A DNA stretch of 64,000 bases. It comes from Parvicella tangerina (GTDB lineage Bacteria > Bacteroidota > Bacteroidia > Flavobacteriales_D > Parvicellaceae). The notes below the pieces were generated by a model that worked only from the letters and a program-made list of their open reading frames with translations, did not search any database and was not told where the DNA came from. Shown here in pieces: positions 27,330 to 38,605 of this stretch. Numbering within the stretch: the stretch's first letter is position 1; every line of letters begins with the position of its first letter. The stretch lies in NCBI RefSeq assembly GCF_907165195.1, contig NZ_OU015584.1, forward strand, positions 2,924,978-2,988,977, in the 5' to 3' direction. A program made the position numbers and the translations under genes.

Positions 27330-28226
27330 CTAACTAGTTTTCAATTTTGATTGCAAATACTTCGAAGTTTGGTTAGGTCCATCATGACTCCAGCCTGGAG
27401 GGTAGAAGATGTACTTCAACTTATCACTCCACTTGTCGGCTCGCTTCACATCCTTCCAGATATTGCGATATTCGTGTGTAGCAATGTAGAGCGGGTTGTA
27501 CGAGTCTATGTTACTCGTAATACCATAAATAGGATGATCGTTATCATCCTCCTCTACGAAGGTACCGAATAACCGATCCCAAATAATCAGGATACCCGCA
27601 TGATTTCGATCTAAATATTTCACTTGTGTGGCATGATGCACTCGATGATGGGATGGCGTGTTGAAGATCCATTCCAGAGGTCCTAATTTCTTCACAAGTT
27701 CGGTGTGTTGGAAGAATTGATAGATCAAGCTAAACGCCTGCATCACTAGCATCCAAACGGGGTGAAAACCAACCAAAGGCATCCATAAATAAAAGATATA
27801 CTTGTAAAAAGGTTCTCCCCAACTCTGTCTTAACGCAACAGAAAAATTCATGTGCGTAGATGAATGGTGCTGAATATGAGCTGCCCAGAGGATTCTTACC
27901 GAATGACTCAAACGATGATGCCAGTAAAAAGACAAATCATCGGCCAACAACAGTAAGATCCACATCCACCAGACATTCTCTAGCGTAAACAAGCGGTGTT
28001 CATACACCAACATGAACAACCAAAAAGCAAAGCTCTTGGTCAAGATTCCGATGACGACAACGCCAAGCCCCATGGATATACATGCAGCTGAATCTTTAAA
28101 TTCATAGAGTTTGAGATTTCTACGAATGTCGATGATTGCCTCAATGACAATGAAAGCGATGAATACAGGTATCGCATATACCGTAGGGTCATCTTTTAAA
28201 GCTGGGTTATTAAAAAACTCATTCAT
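27330..28226 (-). CDS. Sterol desaturase / fatty acid hydroxylase family membrane protein
   Basis: 298 residues with four or more transmembrane helices. The di-iron histidine clusters are complete: HHRLSH near residue 103, HIQHHS near 117, and HHRVHH near 197. Enzymes of this family use a membrane di-iron centre to hydroxylate or desaturate lipids; bacterial substrates include fatty acids, carotenoids and hopanoid-like molecules. The substrate here is not known. It precedes the tRNA-Leu gene on the same strand and follows the FKBP gene after a 69-bp gap. Confidence 0.9.
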   Translation of the reverse strand: MNEFFNNPALKDDPTVYAIPVFIAFIVIEAIIDIRRNLKLYEFKDSAACISMGLGVVVIGILTKSFAFWLFMLVYEHRLFTLENVWWMWILLLLADDLSFYWHHRLSHSVRILWAAHIQHHSSTHMNFSVALRQSWGEPFYKYIFYLWMPLVGFHPVWMLVMQAFSLIYQFFQHTELVKKLGPLEWIFNTPSHHRVHHATQVKYLDRNHAGILIIWDRLFGTFVEEDDNDHPIYGITSNIDSYNPLYIATHEYRNIWKDVKRADKWSDKLKYIFYPPGWSHDGPNQTSKYLQSKLKTS

Positions 28227-29519: not shown

Positions 29520-29542
29520 TTAATGATTTTAGCAATAAGAAT

Positions 29543-29572
29543 AAAAAAAGAGTGCAAAAGCACTCTTTTTTT
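29543..29572. terminator. Bidirectional terminator between converging genes
   Basis: AAAAAAAGAGTGC pairs with GCACTCTTTTTTT around AAAA. It has A/T tracts on both sides and serves the lipoprotein gene (+) and the ATPase gene (-), overlapping the latter's stop codon. Confidence 0.88.
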
Positions 29573-32525
29573 ATTTCCAATCAATTCCCCACTTGCGGTA
29601 TAAGCTCGTTGACACCTCTTTATCTTGAAGACATTGCGCTTCAGATCGTCCTTCCATGCACTTAGACAATCCATCCAGTGCCATCGCCTGAACTAATAAG
29701 TTCCCTTGATCACTTGCCAAGTCCTTAGCTTTATTGAGTTCTTCTATTCCTTGTGAATAGTTGTTGTGATTCAAATGGTTCAACCCCATCAACAAGCTGT
29801 TCTTGTGGGCGTAACTATCTGGAGCACAAACGGCCCATTTATTGAACTTCTTGAGTTGCTTATTGAGCTTAATTCTAGAGATCAACCCATTTCTTTTCTG
29901 CAACGCCATGATGTAGGTTAAGGCTGCGTAAAAGTCATATTCTGTTTTAAAGTACAACCCAGTTAAATTATTGACCAATTTCTTCCCATCTTCAATCAGT
30001 TCCAATGCTCTCATTAGGTCCTTCTTCAAGTAGGCTAGTTTTAACTGCAAAATCAGGTCTACTGAGCTTGTCATAACAAACTGGGTAGTGTCATTAGACA
30101 CCAGTCTATCCATTTCCGTATTGTTGTAGACTCCTTTCTTAAGCTGTTGAATATTTCTTATCAGCATCTTCTGAAAACTCATAAAATCTGTAGCAGACAC
30201 CTTTTCACAGAAGCCATAATTCTCATTAGCTTTTTCAATTACGCTATCCAATTCACCTCCCAAAGACATCATGGTAAGCGACTGGTTGACTGTAGCCTCA
30301 GCTGCTCCAATATAATCCCCTTCCCGATATTGCTTGGCTCTTGCTAAGTCATACCATTCTAACGTATCTTTTAGTGCATGTTTATACGGCCAATATATTG
30401 CCTTTCCAAACAGTACCTTACCTGATTTATTACCATATTTTTCTGCCAGTTGTCCACCAAGATCTGCGTACTTGAAAGCGGTTTCATAATCATTCATTCC
30501 GGCACCAATGATTACTCCGTAAGCCATTAATCCAGACCATGCTTCTCCGTTTGTACCATGCTTGAGCATCAATTGTAGTTGTTTCAATGCAAGCACACCG
30601 TTTAGTTCAGGAGCCAGATATTGCGTTGCTCGATATAACCAAAAAAACACCTGAAAGGCTTTCTCCAATCGTGAATCACTTACCTGTGGAAGTTCGTAAA
30701 CTTCTTCTAAGGTTTTCTTGTTAAGCATGTTTCTTGTTTTCAGAAACTCCAACAAAACAGAGATTCTGCCTGGTTTTGTAGGTAGCTTAATTCCTAATTC
30801 CTCCAATATTTCTAACCCCACAGAGAGGCCTTTACTTAATTTACCCAACTGTATTTCGAGCACCATTTGCACAAACCTGATCTCAAACAAAGCTTCTTTA
30901 GAAAAATGCTGAAGCGCATTATTCATGTAACCTAAACTTGCTTCATCCATATTATTCAACCGGGCTAAGTGATAGGCTTCAGTATATAGCTCAGCCAAAA
31001 CTTCTCGATCTTCACTCCAATTCAGTTCTTGAGCAAAATTTTCACCTGCCTTTATGTATTTGTAACCCGTTCTGAACGATGTTAGCAAACGTGCTTTTTT
31101 TGCCGCCAGGACATTGAGATGTGTATAGCTTCTTCGCTCATCTTTGGTCATCGGGAGCGAGGAGGATTTATTTACATGAGCTGCCGCCTCAAAGACGTCT
31201 CTATCTGATATACCAGTTGCAGATCGGTTTATTAAGTAATTTGCAATTGTTCGGTGATTTTTACAACAGGCCTCCCCTTTGATCCGCTCACGAATCCCCT
31301 CTGCGACATCTTCACTCGAAAAATGATAGTTACCATCACTTACATTACCATACTGTGTAGTTACTTCATCCCTATCAATAAATCCTTTTTCCATAAGGCG
31401 CTCGAGAAGTTGATTAGCTTCACTGGTATTAAATCTCATCAATTTGGTGATCAGCGCAGCATTGATATTGGTACCCAAACAAGCACAAAACCTTAATAAT
31501 TCCTTCTCTGACTCATCGAGCCCTTCATACTTATTCAGGAATAATGAAACGATCGACATCTTCGAGGTAAACCACCCCTTATCGATATCCCACATCCATT
31601 GCTCAGTTTCAGGGTCGTATTGCAGTTTGTTCTCTCTAATCAACTTACGCAATGTTTCAATCAAGCTTTTCGGATTTCCTCCCGCAGTTTGATAAGTAAG
31701 CTCGGTCAATTCATCTAGACGATTGACTTTATTTCCAAGACAGAATCGAATGAAACCATTAACTTCATTCACTGTAAATTGTTCTAATTTGATAGCGAAT
31801 TGCGCATGTTTAGCATTTTCAGCGTTTTTCTGTAACAACTCTTCTCTTAATCCTTGCCATTCACCCGATCTTCCCGACAAAACGATCATTACTGGCGCTT
31901 CAACGCTAGAGAAAATCTGATAAAGGAGTTCTAAGGTATCTCTATCGTAGAGTGACATGTTGTCAATGAGCAGCACAAACTTTCGGTTGATTTCTTTAAA
32001 AATCTCTTGCGCAAAGTCTATGTAAAAACTTTCTAAAAGCATCTTATTGGTAGTGGGTGCTACTCCAGATGCCTTGCCTCTTTTTGCACTTCGATGAAAG
32101 TCAGGAGTTAAAAACGGTATACTATGAACAACTTCATTGGGTAAATCAGCCACTATTGGATTCATCTTTCCTATCCATTCTGAAAGTTCATGATCACTTT
32201 TCATGTCACGCATAAACTGTAAAAGTCTATCAAAAAGATCGTTCAGTAGTTCATACGGTCTAAGCTCACTGCCTGTATAAAACGAAAATCGAAATAGATG
32301 TATCCCTGGTTGTGCGGAGAACACTTTTTGCTTCAGATGTGTTTTACCCATACCAGACTCACCTGAAACCTCCAAACATACTGACTTTCCACTAATCAAC
32401 GTTGTCAAAGCTTCCTGGATAATCGCAAGTTCCTTATCGCGACCAAACACCTCTTTAGGAGCTTCCAGTTGATGAGGATAATTCACCCTTCCGTCAGATT
32501 GATATGAGCTTCCGTACTCTTTCAC
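29571..32525 (-). CDS. AAA_16-type ATPase with TPR-like repeats (LAL/PknK-like module without output domain)
   Basis: 984 residues. Residues about 26-230 form an AAA_16 ATPase: Walker A GESGMGKT at 55-62, Walker B KFVLLIDNMS near 183, and a sensor stretch VMIVLSGRSG. Residues 430-975 are helical TPR-like repeats. The end (SLYRKWGIDWK) matches the point where GAF, kinase or LuxR-HTH output domains begin in larger STAND-type regulators; none follows here. It starts with GTG overlapping the stop of the membrane gene by one base (TAGTG), so translation is coupled. A regulatory or scaffolding role for the adjacent oxygenase and cyclase-like proteins is inferred. Confidence 0.85.
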   Translation of the reverse strand: MKEYGSSYQSDGRVNYPHQLEAPKEVFGRDKELAIIQEALTTLISGKSVCLEVSGESGMGKTHLKQKVFSAQPGIHLFRFSFYTGSELRPYELLNDLFDRLLQFMRDMKSDHELSEWIGKMNPIVADLPNEVVHSIPFLTPDFHRSAKRGKASGVAPTTNKMLLESFYIDFAQEIFKEINRKFVLLIDNMSLYDRDTLELLYQIFSSVEAPVMIVLSGRSGEWQGLREELLQKNAENAKHAQFAIKLEQFTVNEVNGFIRFCLGNKVNRLDELTELTYQTAGGNPKSLIETLRKLIRENKLQYDPETEQWMWDIDKGWFTSKMSIVSLFLNKYEGLDESEKELLRFCACLGTNINAALITKLMRFNTSEANQLLERLMEKGFIDRDEVTTQYGNVSDGNYHFSSEDVAEGIRERIKGEACCKNHRTIANYLINRSATGISDRDVFEAAAHVNKSSSLPMTKDERRSYTHLNVLAAKKARLLTSFRTGYKYIKAGENFAQELNWSEDREVLAELYTEAYHLARLNNMDEASLGYMNNALQHFSKEALFEIRFVQMVLEIQLGKLSKGLSVGLEILEELGIKLPTKPGRISVLLEFLKTRNMLNKKTLEEVYELPQVSDSRLEKAFQVFFWLYRATQYLAPELNGVLALKQLQLMLKHGTNGEAWSGLMAYGVIIGAGMNDYETAFKYADLGGQLAEKYGNKSGKVLFGKAIYWPYKHALKDTLEWYDLARAKQYREGDYIGAAEATVNQSLTMMSLGGELDSVIEKANENYGFCEKVSATDFMSFQKMLIRNIQQLKKGVYNNTEMDRLVSNDTTQFVMTSSVDLILQLKLAYLKKDLMRALELIEDGKKLVNNLTGLYFKTEYDFYAALTYIMALQKRNGLISRIKLNKQLKKFNKWAVCAPDSYAHKNSLLMGLNHLNHNNYSQGIEELNKAKDLASDQGNLLVQAMALDGLSKCMEGRSEAQCLQDKEVSTSLYRKWGIDWK

Positions 32526-33223
32526 TAGGCTTTAATGGCAACATTTTCAACAGGTTTCCATTCCTTCCCCTGTCTGCTATAAAGTAAATATAAATAAGTA
32601 ATATCCAGTAGGAATACGACCCCACCGATTACATGTACAAAGAGGTTCGGTGGATCAAAGTTAAAATAAACGATCGTATATGCCAGTGTTCCAAGACATT
32701 TGCACCAGGCCATAATCTTAGAGAATTTTTTAAAGGTCCATTGGCGTAGAAACAGGGTAATAAAAAGGGTAGAAATAAGTACGTTGGATATATAAGCCGA
32801 CTGACTCCCCCATTTATGATCAAAACCTGAATAAATAAACGTTGAATAAAGCGTTACCCACCCAGCAATTACGACCAAAACCAGCCAGTTAAAATTCTTT
32901 TTAATATCCGGAATATCTACTTGCTTGCTTCCGTATTTAAAAACTCCATACAGGATGTAAATATCCAGAAAGAACCAGGCCCGATAGCTCCAGACAAAAA
33001 ACTCACCCAGGTTAATCGTTTCGTAAAAAAAGAACCCCCAAACAAATTCCCAACTGATGTTTCCCAATGCACAGACCCATGGCATTTCAACATATTTATC
33101 CTTTCTAATGGAACGAATAATTAGAATATATAAAGTGATCCAGAAAAGCCATCCAATAGAGGTTACTATAAGTTCGTAAGGAGTGAACTCCTTCAGGTTG
33201 ATCCAATAATTAATATCTCGCAT
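32525..33223 (-). CDS. Seven-helix membrane protein resembling transmembrane terpene cyclases (PaxB/Pyr4 type)
   Basis: 232 residues, seven hydrophobic helices. The size, topology and two acidic residues match the transmembrane-type terpene cyclase family: Glu59 in NISWEFVWGFFF and Asp207 in FLLDITYLYLLY sit where fungal Pyr4 has its catalytic Glu63 and Asp218. Those enzymes protonate an epoxide and cyclise farnesyl- or geranylgeranyl-derived chains. Fit is by motif and spacing only. It is 9 bp after the DUF2236 oxygenase gene and overlaps the ATPase gene, so the three form an operon. The alternative is an unrelated small integral membrane protein. Confidence 0.6.
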   Translation of the reverse strand: MRDINYWINLKEFTPYELIVTSIGWLFWITLYILIIRSIRKDKYVEMPWVCALGNISWEFVWGFFFYETINLGEFFVWSYRAWFFLDIYILYGVFKYGSKQVDIPDIKKNFNWLVLVVIAGWVTLYSTFIYSGFDHKWGSQSAYISNVLISTLFITLFLRQWTFKKFSKIMAWCKCLGTLAYTIVYFNFDPPNLFVHVIGGVVFLLDITYLYLLYSRQGKEWKPVENVAIKA

Positions 33224-33232
33224 AACAAGTGA

Positions 33233-34330
33233 TTAGTTTAAGTTCCACATTCCTTTAAGGCTTGGCGGGATATAGAACCTTACCTGTTTATGTTCATTGA
33301 AATGCAGTAACATACCTTGTAGCAAATGAAGGTTCAGTTTTTCTGCAATTTTAGCTGTAAAATGCCCAAGATCATTGGCATCACTTTCTGAAGCAAAAAC
33401 ATCTCCCAACATTCTTGGAATGATCAACTTTTGCAATTTCGAGTAGGGTCGAACTTCTAACACATCTGCGACTCGGTCTCCAGCTAAAAAGCGAATCATT
33501 GCCTCAGGCACATGGTCAAGCAAATTACCTGGCAGCGCATGTTCCATAAACTGATAAACAGCTTTTGTTAACTGCACCCCTTCTTTTGATGGCGCTATTT
33601 GATCGTCCAAAATAACTTTTCCCAACTCAAAACCCTCTTTATGGCTGGCAGGATTCACATCCTGGTGAACTCCCATTACATGTCCGATTACATGCCATAC
33701 ATGATAATACCCTGCTTTTTCATCTTCTGAAAGTTCAATGTTCAGTTGCTGCAACCCTTGAAGTATTAGTGTTGAAAATGACTGAAGTGTACCCGCCATA
33801 TCCTGCTGATTGATCGGCTTTCCATTTCTCAGGTCCCAATTATATTTGCTCAGGTAATATCGAATCGCTGAATGGATCAATCGAACTTTTTGAGCAGTAA
33901 CAATGCCTTTTCCATCTGGCTGGAGACCTCCAGGAGAACATACGTTAACAACAAACTGAGCCGTTTCCATCAACCTTCGTGTAAAAACGGTTAATGAACC
34001 ATTATGCTCCGTCATTCTTCCTGTGGCATAGAGTACTTTTGCTCCTTTGGCGCATGCGTAAGCCTCTGGCAAAGATTTACAGAGTAGACACATGGAGATT
34101 TGAGGTCCATATCTTGAAAAGACCCTCTCTCCCACTGACACCAACTCCCAATTAACAGTATCAGGTAAGTGTTTGGTTTCATTAAAATACCGTTGGACTG
34201 GAGGTGGGAAATGCACATCCTTCAGGTCATGATTTTCTCTTAACTGACTAAACAGTCTGTTAATCGCTTCCTTACCTTCCTGTTCTATGATTAACTCAAC
34301 CGTTCGATCGGCAAACGGGTCAGCCATCAT
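33233..34330 (-). CDS. DUF2236 oxygenase (MpaB/Lcp family)
   Basis: 365 residues, no signal peptide. Family motifs: VSVGERVFSRYG, SLPEAYACAKGAKVLYATGRM (residues 87-106), RRLMETAQFVV, KVRLIHSAIRYYL with His153 as likely haem ligand (Lcp His198 equivalent), and a His-rich helix YYHVWHVIGHVMGVHQD (210-222). MpaB and latex-clearing Lcp are haem oxygenases that cleave isoprenoid double bonds. With the terpene-cyclase-like gene 9 bp downstream, an isoprenoid tailoring or cleavage step is inferred. It is the first gene of the operon. Confidence 0.82.
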   Translation of the reverse strand: MMADPFADRTVELIIEQEGKEAINRLFSQLRENHDLKDVHFPPPVQRYFNETKHLPDTVNWELVSVGERVFSRYGPQISMCLLCKSLPEAYACAKGAKVLYATGRMTEHNGSLTVFTRRLMETAQFVVNVCSPGGLQPDGKGIVTAQKVRLIHSAIRYYLSKYNWDLRNGKPINQQDMAGTLQSFSTLILQGLQQLNIELSEDEKAGYYHVWHVIGHVMGVHQDVNPASHKEGFELGKVILDDQIAPSKEGVQLTKAVYQFMEHALPGNLLDHVPEAMIRFLAGDRVADVLEVRPYSKLQKLIIPRMLGDVFASESDANDLGHFTAKIAEKLNLHLLQGMLLHFNEHKQVRFYIPPSLKGMWNLN

Positions 34331-34463
34331 CCTGTACTGCTTAAATCACGCTCGTTCCAACTACTCATAAGCAAAAGATTATTTCATTTCTTATGAAAAT
34401 AGTTAATTTATCGAACGAAACCTTCATTAATTGTCGACTCAAACAAAATCAATGATGAATCAT

Positions 34464-34487
34464 TAAAAAAAACTCATCACAGGAGTT
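34464..34487 (-). terminator. Terminator of paaZ
   Basis: A 5-bp stem AACTC/GAGTT with a 7-nt loop, followed on the minus strand by a run of eight T. It overlaps the paaZ stop codon. Confidence 0.65.
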
Positions 34488-36535: not shown

Positions 36536-38605
36536 TTATTTAATTTTATCCTGATTCTTAAATTTAATAATGTATTTCGTTCCGTTGTTTACAACGAGTT
36601 CTTTAGTTCCATCCAACTGGCCTACTAAGGTATCAATCAATTCTAAGCCAAGCGTATTTGAAGCTAAATAATCTCCTGAAATCCCAACTCCATCATCAGC
36701 AATCTCAAGCAGGTAGTCATCCTCATTCAACTGCTTAATACTCACTTCAACATGGCCTCTACTCCTATCTTGAAAAGCATGTTTAAGTGCATTTGAAACG
36801 ATTTCATTGGTTAATAAACCTAGTGGGATCAGTGTATCCAACCCAAAAGAAAGTTTTTCCACATTTACGTTACATGAAATTTCTTGGTTCACACTATAAA
36901 CATCAATGAGATCTTGAATTAACTTTTGATAATAATCCTCCACATCAACCTTAGACAAATCTACACTTCCGTGCAGAGACTCGTGAACAAGCGCAATGGA
37001 AGAAACCCTATTTTCAAAGTCAGTGAGGATCTCACAAGACTCATCGCCTGTAGCATCCCTTTGTAAACGGATCAAACTCTTTACGACCTGCAAATTATTC
37101 TTTACCCGGTGATGAATTTCCTTGATCATCATTTCCTTTTCTTCTGCACCAATTCGTGTCTCTCTTAACTCCTGGTTGATGGTTGCATACTCTTTTGCTC
37201 CTTGTTTAAGTCGGTTAAAACTTCTGAAAACTAATACTAGCGCAATAATCAAAAGAATAAAAACCCCTGAAAGGACTATCACCATCAGCCATAGATTGGT
37301 TTCATCCAAGCGAAGCTGTTCTGCTTGTTTTTTTTGCTTCTCCAGCGAAGCCTCTAGTTCTAAAATGAGTTCTTGTTTCTGCTTGTCATTATACTGGGCC
37401 TGAAGTACCTGAGATAGCACTTCCTGTTCTTTACTACTCATGGTATCCATCTGTTGAATAACCGTAACTAAAAACTCGTACGCCTCCTGATAATTTCCTT
37501 GATTAGCCGCATATTTACTAAAAATAATCTTCAGCTCTTCAATGATTCCATACTGTTCAAATTCATTGGCATAAGACATGGCTAAGTCATAGTACTTATT
37601 GAAATTCACCGAATCATTAAGCAAGGAATACGTATCCGCAAAATTTAGATAGGTACTGGATAATGAAGCCTGCTCTTCTAGCTTAATTTTATACTTCTCA
37701 CTAAGGGCAAGGTAGTAGAGCGTGGAATCATAGATGGCCTGTTCTTTGTAAACCAGGGCAATATTGTTGTAGCTATAGCTCAAGGTTTTTTCACTTCCTC
37801 CTAGTTCTCGATTCTTGATTGCTTTTTTATAGTAAACCAATGCAAGGTCAAGCTCATCGCGAATACGGTGAATATTCCCTATGTTATTGTAAACATTTGC
37901 CAAACCGATATAGTTGTCCTCAGTCTGGTAGATCTCTTCTGCCTTCATATAATACTCCATGGCGTCTTCCAACTGACCTTGCTTTTTAAAGACTACACCA
38001 ATATTTACACAAGTACTCGCCAGATTTTTTGGTAAGTTTTGCTGTTTAGCGATGTCGTAAGCTTGATAATATTTCTGCAGTGCTTCTCCGTAGCTTTGTA
38101 CATTTTTTAATAGTATCCCTTCACGGTTTAAGATCTCAACAAGGCTTTTATAATCCTTATTTTTGAGAAATCCCTCTTCTGCTAGCTGAAAATAATAGAT
38201 GGCACTATCCAGTAACAATGACTTTTGAAACCACTTGCCATAGAGTTCATAGGAGTAATACAGTTCTTCGTGTTCATTCTTCCTATCCCAGGAAATGGCA
38301 TCTTTCAAATAGTCCAGCGCCTTTTTATCTTGTCCCGTTTTAAGATAATAAAGATAGGCAGATCGATACGTATCTCCTTTTAATACTCCTCCAGATTTTT
38401 CTCCAATATCAAGCATGGACTTCAGATATAACTCGGCTTCAGGAGCTGAATCATAAAGATCAACAAGTTGATTGATCAAAGTCACCTTCTCCTCATCTGA
38501 AGTTGCTTTAGAAAGCTGTTGTTCAAGACTATCTATCGCCTGCTGGCCAACACTCACCCAGCTAAGCAAAACAAAAAGCAGTACTACCCCACATTTCATA
38601 CGCAT
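36536..38605 (-). CDS. TPR sensor histidine kinase (HisKA_2 type)
   Basis: 689 residues. Signal peptide 1-20, then about seven TPR units (40-390; SYNNIALVYKEQ, NVYNNIGNIHRI), a coiled coil (400-430), a transmembrane helix (about 433-455), and the HisKA_2 dimerisation region with EIHHRVKNNLQ (phospho-acceptor among His498/His499). The HATPase shows the N box TNEIVSNALKHAF and G1 box DDGVGISG. Periplasmic TPRs with cytoplasmic kinase are a common Bacteroidota sensor design. No response regulator adjoins; paaZ follows after one base. Signal unknown. Confidence 0.92.
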   Translation of the reverse strand: MRMKCGVVLLFVLLSWVSVGQQAIDSLEQQLSKATSDEEKVTLINQLVDLYDSAPEAELYLKSMLDIGEKSGGVLKGDTYRSAYLYYLKTGQDKKALDYLKDAISWDRKNEHEELYYSYELYGKWFQKSLLLDSAIYYFQLAEEGFLKNKDYKSLVEILNREGILLKNVQSYGEALQKYYQAYDIAKQQNLPKNLASTCVNIGVVFKKQGQLEDAMEYYMKAEEIYQTEDNYIGLANVYNNIGNIHRIRDELDLALVYYKKAIKNRELGGSEKTLSYSYNNIALVYKEQAIYDSTLYYLALSEKYKIKLEEQASLSSTYLNFADTYSLLNDSVNFNKYYDLAMSYANEFEQYGIIEELKIIFSKYAANQGNYQEAYEFLVTVIQQMDTMSSKEQEVLSQVLQAQYNDKQKQELILELEASLEKQKKQAEQLRLDETNLWLMVIVLSGVFILLIIALVLVFRSFNRLKQGAKEYATINQELRETRIGAEEKEMMIKEIHHRVKNNLQVVKSLIRLQRDATGDESCEILTDFENRVSSIALVHESLHGSVDLSKVDVEDYYQKLIQDLIDVYSVNQEISCNVNVEKLSFGLDTLIPLGLLTNEIVSNALKHAFQDRSRGHVEVSIKQLNEDDYLLEIADDGVGISGDYLASNTLGLELIDTLVGQLDGTKELVVNNGTKYIIKFKNQDKIK

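Follow-up and report, generated by a model that had tools for sequence, protein, structure and literature searches.

An operon on the minus strand of a 64,000-nucleotide stretch of the Parvicella tangerina genome (contig NZ_OU015584.1, positions 2,924,978 to 2,988,977; hereafter the window) encodes a DUF2236 family oxygenase, a Pyr4-like transmembrane terpene cyclase (TMTC) family protein and a STAND-type ATPase. The explanation I prefer, with slightly less than even confidence, is that this trio is one case of a dispersed modular cassette, consisting of a signal-forming enzyme pair and its receptor. I hold somewhat more tentatively the wider proposal that such cassettes constitute an undescribed bacterial signalling class, whose isoprenoid-derived signal would be made by an oxidase (haem or flavin) together with a Pyr4-family membrane cyclase, and that unrelated receptor/output proteins would have been recruited repeatedly to read this signal, in Bacteroidota, Fibrobacterota, Acidobacteriota, Myxococcota and Ca. 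Uabimicrobium.

The three open reading frames (ORFs) follow each other in the order DUF2236, membrane protein and ATPase. The first two genes are separated by 9 bp, the last two overlap by one base in TAGTG, and a terminator-like hairpin is found after the last gene. An earlier reading of the same DNA (hereafter the original prediction) had described these abutting genes; their positions are confirmed, and the trio is a real operon. The terpene-cyclase-like identity that it proposed for the 232-residue membrane protein is borne out by profile search, with a match to the Pfam family PF25129 (Pyr4-TMTC) at 67.3 bits, against a cut-off of 27, and matches to the same family for 32/32 homologues. 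Judged by its sequence, this protein is a true Pyr4-TMTC family member. An AlphaFold model generated with the 32 homologues possesses seven long helices (predicted local distance difference test score, pLDDT, 92.6; predicted template modelling score, pTM, 0.86), and sequence and model agree with the seven helices and the two motifs described originally, namely W58-E59-F60 and D207 in LLDITYLY.

The acidic residues are well conserved, as had been expected for Glu59 and Asp207. Within the TMTC clade that includes the window protein, E59 and D87 are present in 44 of 44 sequences and D207 in 41 of 43, and they are mostly kept outside the clade, in TMTCs of Nostoc and Streptomyces plasmids and of other genomes of the Bacteroidota phylum (D87 and D207 in 17/17, E59 in 14/17). 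Judged by their motifs, E59 and D207 are the putative counterparts of the catalytic Glu63 and Asp218 of Pyr4. Other conserved residues, W173 and S142 among them, are peculiar to the clade of the window. A sequence search identified no TMTC relative among solved structures, and matches were obtained by fold comparison of the model only, to the KDEL receptor (Z 13.9), SWEET (Z 11) and also cystinosin, with unrelated entries at about 6. The modelled fold suggests that TMTC cyclases share an ancestor or a fold with these PQ-loop transporters and receptors.

The first gene product had been assigned to the DUF2236 family, and this stands, with a match to PF09995 (MPAB_Lcp_cat) at 68 bits for a cut-off of 23. 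A profile of 20 DUF2236 homologues matched the rubber oxygenase structures 5o1m and 5o1l at E 6e-39, and in the resulting alignment R119, T123, R150, H153 and R157 correspond to R164, T168, R195, H198 and R202 of LcpK30, residues that have been named as important in Lcp (PMC5522427). The haem-binding histidine and the active-site arginine and threonine (H198, R164 and T168 in Lcp) are retained in this alignment; R119, R150, H153 and R157 are found in 32/32 DUF2236 homologues, and T123 in 30/32. An identity as Lcp proper was rejected, since Lys167, located near the haem, is not kept: the corresponding residue is E122 in the window protein, and E, A, Q, G or S, mostly Glu, in the 32 homologues. 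The protein is therefore assigned to PF09995 only.

The third gene encodes a 984-residue protein with a match to AAA_16 (PF13191; 46.7 bits), followed by a long helical C-terminal region, in which neither Pfam nor NCBIfam scans identified a helix-turn-helix (HTH) family. It had been described as LAL-like, and this holds for its ATPase core only: the N-terminal AAA ATPase is present but the LuxR-type HTH expected at the C-terminus of a LAL regulator is absent, and that identity was rejected. The protein is homologous over ~1000 residues to proteins of four other loci (L026, L029, L050 and L064). In the window this core stands alone; elsewhere it is fused to a Ser/Thr kinase, GAF and a cyclase or SpoIIE.

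Loci encoding related TMTCs were gathered for comparison. A PF25129 survey of the window's phylum found 24 carriers in 395 genomes. A scan of the genome collection, for which a narrower TMTC alignment was used, an alignment of eight TMTCs being too diverse, led to 40 named loci in Bacteroidota (including Ignavibacteria and Kapaibacteria), Fibrobacterota, Acidobacteria, Myxococcales and Ca. Uabimicrobium; these were found via two short motifs of the window clade, and are not a whole-family sample. Duplicates were removed, leaving 44 loci for analysis in the TMTC clade that includes the window; the comparison as a whole drew on 54 loci, from about five phyla. Many of these are in metagenome-assembled genomes, and domains of neighbouring genes were mostly called with small in-house profiles seeded with Pfam-confirmed members, and not by a full Pfam scan.

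This analysis revealed a conserved gene arrangement, and the trio recurs in other genomes, in line with the original prediction. Of 42 loci in the window clade, 27 have a DUF2236 gene directly upstream of the TMTC, and 5 have the gene of a PF01593 flavoprotein there. Directly downstream, a signalling gene is found in 31 of 39 loci, compared to 4 of 150 control genes located at least 6 positions away (Fisher p 8e-24). The intergenic gaps are mostly between -20 and +30 bp, with a 4-bp overlap frequent. A second, less biased sample came from a separate family-profile search of 395 Bacteroidia genomes, which gave 14 carriers and 10 new loci. There, the oxidase (DUF2236 or flavoprotein) adjoins the TMTC or lies two genes from it in 8/10 loci, and a signalling gene is adjacent to the pair in 8/10 (six directly downstream, one between the pair and one directly upstream of DUF2236). 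On the basis of the within-locus control and the second sample, chance co-location of the TMTC pair and signalling genes was rejected. The flavoprotein that takes the place of DUF2236 (L057, L066, L125, L120, L127, L060, L072, L074 and L082) is 550-660 residues in length, and resembles hydroxysqualene dehydroxylase and carotene desaturases, with scores far under their cut-offs. Among the scanned neighbours of the related loci, no gene for a prenyltransferase, a prenyl synthase or any other enzyme of terpenoid biosynthesis was identified. The other TMTCs of the window's phylum (L035-L045, from small genomes) form a second clade, which lacks DUF2236 and has hardly any signalling genes nearby. 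Tandem TMTC gene pairs are present at L063:1555-2933 and L070:2910-4386.

The signalling genes fall into several classes, whose members are given in Table 1. Their output domains are mutually unrelated, and include HisKA_2 or HisKA kinases, Guanylate_cyc, SpoIIE, Pkinase+AAA_16+GAF and 7TMR-DISM+SpoIIE. Despite these differing outputs, the N-termini that possess six transmembrane helices (6TM) are homologous to one another; the AlphaFold model of this sensor domain is of low confidence (pLDDT 68). Mapped on the TMTC tree, the outputs require at least 10 changes of class, and the upstream enzyme requires one. TMTC distances correlate with DUF2236 distances at r 0.56 and with ATPase distances at r 0.71, and in each case 0 of 2000 permutations were as high. 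That a single enzyme pair is accompanied by receptors of several unrelated types fits a small-molecule ligand better than one protein docking to all of them.

From this arrangement I infer the chemistry of the enzyme pair, and its sensing by the neighbouring gene product, as follows. The DUF2236 haem-type oxygenase would oxidise a membrane-soluble isoprenoid, for example a carotenoid, a polyprenoid or a prenylated quinone, with the desaturase-like flavoprotein standing in for it in one sub-clade. The TMTC would cyclise the oxidised chain, by general-acid catalysis via E59 and D207, to yield a small hydrophobic terpenoid. This product would then be the ligand of the co-encoded signalling protein: in the window its binding would switch on the stand-alone STAND ATPase, and elsewhere the receptor would be a 6TM histidine kinase, a 6TM nucleotide cyclase, a 7TMR-DISM/SpoIIE phosphatase, or a fusion of kinase, ATPase and GAF with a cyclase or phosphatase. 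An isoprenoid substrate is plausible, because the flavoprotein that replaces DUF2236 is similar to redox enzymes acting on squalene or carotenes and because the host possesses a carotenoid-type operon. The latter (L092, C1:3514-3520 kb) comprises SQS_PSY, two Amino_oxidase (desaturase-like) genes, Caroten_synth and an extracytoplasmic function (ECF) sigma factor, and is one possible source of substrate. The host genome, of 3.98 Mb in one contig, contains a single copy each of the TMTC and DUF2236 genes. The original prediction was of an isoprenoid pathway controlled or scaffolded by the ATPase. Its isoprenoid component remains plausible; since the product of the third gene is one of a large pool of interchangeable signalling proteins, control or scaffolding of a single biosynthetic pathway is now the weaker reading, and signal production and sensing the stronger.

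A number of observations weigh against this proposal. Gene linkage alone fits either a pair feeding a sensor or a sensor regulating the pair, species relatedness may contribute to the correlation of TMTC, DUF2236 and ATPase distances, and the stand-alone ATPase of the window has no recognisable output domain. With Glu, Ala or Gln at the position of Lys167, the chemistry of the oxygenase may differ from that of Lcp. Furthermore, in L056, L073, L075, the two Hymenobacter loci L057 and L066, L124 and L125 the TMTC, with or without an oxidase, has no signalling neighbour. The first five of these loci, where the enzymes may serve a purpose of their own, favour an alternative close to the original prediction, in which the pair makes a structural or protective membrane terpenoid and the signalling neighbour only times the pathway; it is also the case that STAND ATPases and kinases often regulate adjacent genes. 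However, the outputs encoded are class III cyclases, SpoIIE phosphatases, CheY-type regulators and Ser/Thr kinases, and not DNA-binding local regulators, the window ATPase is devoid of an HTH, and swapping among so many unrelated receptor types would be unusual for a local regulator. I regard this alternative as unlikely, though the likeliest of the rivals.

The fold of the TMTC is a further point against signal production by the pair, as it is common to receptors and transporters (KDEL receptor, SWEET), so that the TMTC could itself bind or sense. It would in that case be a sensor subunit, a non-cyclising seven-helix protein which binds an isoprenoid (either the substrate or the product of the oxygenase, which might serve as a chromophore or a redox sensor) and relays its state by contact to the signalling protein encoded next to it. 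The translational coupling of the TMTC to the output gene, with many -4 bp overlaps, and the existence of a distinct clade with conserved residues of its own, such as W173 and S142, are in agreement with such a role, as is the receptor/transporter superfold itself. It is nevertheless rather improbable, since E59 and D207 show the same degree of conservation as elsewhere in the family, its actinobacterial members included, since the partners are structurally unrelated, contrary to a single docking surface, and since the loci read showed no fusion between a TMTC and an output domain. Finally, membership of the TMTC family, whose bacterial Pyr4-like cyclases make meroterpenoids (PMC13307353), could point to an ordinary terpenoid natural-product operon, as in the bacterial and fungal Pyr4-type clusters, with incidental signalling neighbours. 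This is very improbable: the absence of identified terpenoid genes among the scanned neighbours led to its rejection as the main explanation, and the signalling linkage is far over the control and is repeated in the second sample.

The features of the operon are collected in Table 1. The DUF2236 ORF as called retains the whole catalytic domain; its homologues start ~18 residues earlier, with the pattern W-x-x-E-E-F ... DPLAD, and the called ORF is without this leader, which is readable from 34368 in a different frame. The presence of the ~18-residue leader in the other frame suggests, at the level of the sequence, that it holds a one-base frameshift, either genuine or due to a sequencing error. 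In the gap upstream of DUF2236 there is one promoter-like match (34406-34378), the number of such matches not being above chance. Pfam analysis of the window genes between 27330 and 38605 identified a fatty acid hydroxylase, an FKBP, a lipoprotein, the trio, PaaZ and a histidine kinase, and no prenyltransferase, prenyl synthase or other terpenoid gene. The histidine kinase lies 1 bp from PaaZ, which sits between it and the trio; it is of the same output class as that of L048, and possibly belongs to the circuit of the trio. In the search for an empty site, the surroundings of PaaZ were compared in genomes of the same genus and of the same family; PaaZ is kept there but none of the tested window neighbours is, making the comparison uninformative.

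Table 1. Features of the operon and its surroundings (window coordinates), and classes of signalling protein encoded next to the TMTC (loci).
Feature	Position or loci	Strand	Remarks
DUF2236 / MpaB-Lcp family oxygenase gene (PF09995)	33233..34330	(-)	365 aa as called; Pfam E 1.7e-18
Pyr4-like TMTC family gene (PF25129)	32525..33223	(-)	232 aa; Pfam E 2.1e-18
STAND-type AAA_16 ATPase gene	29571..32525	(-)	984 aa, GTG start; AAA_16 E 6.6e-12
Intrinsic terminator-like hairpin and T-rich tail	29540..29575	(-)	16-pair stem AATAAAAAAAGAGTGC-TTTT-GCACTCTTTTTTTATT; overlaps ATPase gene end, right after stop codon
PaaZ stop to called DUF2236 start	34331..34485	(-)	155-bp gap; presumed operon promoter region, contains lost DUF2236 leader
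Probable out-of-frame N-terminal leader of DUF2236 gene (MSSWNERDLSS...)	34331..34368	(-)	three-frame translation compared with N-termini of L046, L047, L048, L061, L067
TPR histidine kinase (HisKA_2)	36536-38605		
Fatty-acid-hydroxylase superfamily gene, downstream of operon	27330-28226		FA_hydroxylase 94 bits; weak match to ornithine lipid hydroxylase OlsE
Stand-alone AAA_16 ATPase	window, L046, L047, L061, L067		
Ser/Thr kinase + AAA_16 + GAF + SpoIIE	L026, L058, L064		
Ser/Thr kinase + AAA_16 + GAF + class III cyclase	L029, L049, L050, L069, L080, L081, L083, L085		
6TM domain + HisKA_2 or HisKA kinase, CheY-type regulators	L048, L052, L053, L072, L074, L060		
6TM domain + class III cyclase (Guanylate_cyc)	L028, L082		
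6TM domain + SpoIIE	L027		
7TMR-DISM + SpoIIE	L116, L118		split or cut copies in L119, L054

Examples of Pyr4-like TMTCs include Pyr4 and PaxB in fungi, and XiaH, TylF, GroF and ZigF in bacteria, and cyclases of the Pyr4 type are not known outside natural-product biosynthesis. DUF2236 proteins are known mainly from rubber degradation and fungal biosynthesis. The window TMTC shares with the former the profile match, the seven helices, the W-E motif and the C-terminal Asp, but its clade is separate and linked to signalling proteins, with no meroterpenoid genes found adjacent. Similarly, the window DUF2236 protein possesses the catalytic domain of Lcp and MpaB and the equivalents of Lcp Arg164, Thr168, Arg195, His198 and Arg202, but it is partnered by a TMTC and a signalling gene, and not by genes for rubber degradation or mycophenolic acid. 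The ATPase has the AAA_16 core and long helical region of the PknK, Hstk and TOMM-kinase-cyclase STAND ATPases, but is limited to this core, and possesses no kinase, GAF, cyclase or HTH domain.

Bacterial Pyr4-like cyclases have been charted, in a survey that narrowed 1107 candidates down to the 264 located near terpenoid genes, and are known from biosynthetic clusters (PMC13307353). As only candidates near terpenoid genes were retained in that survey, loci such as that of the window were probably filtered out. No description of the signalling-linked TMTC clade, or of its pairing with DUF2236, was found in the open-access papers searched (subscription journals being outside the search), nor was anything pertinent found there that connects Pyr4 or DUF2236 proteins to histidine kinases or to signalling.

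As a working analogy only, the arrangement resembles that of the CqsA/CqsS and Lqs autoinducer systems, where an enzyme gene is located beside a 6TM sensor gene; across the genomes surveyed here, the enzyme gene adjoins the sensor gene in the manner of such synthase-receptor systems in 31/39 loci, and in 8/10 of the second sample. CqsS-type 6TM domains read a hydrophobic autoinducer, and can drive kinases or cyclases (PMC4821796). The enzymes described here are, however, unrelated to those of the autoinducer systems, and the receptors come from several unrelated families. If the proposal is correct, it would provide a role for many bacterial members of the Pyr4 and DUF2236 families that are found outside terpenoid clusters. 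It would also hint at a terpenoid signalling language in bacteria, for which cultured or named hosts are available, namely Hymenobacter telluris and H. setariae, where the TMTC is behind the desaturase-like flavoprotein, and Ca. Uabimicrobium amorphum, which has the DUF2236 form.

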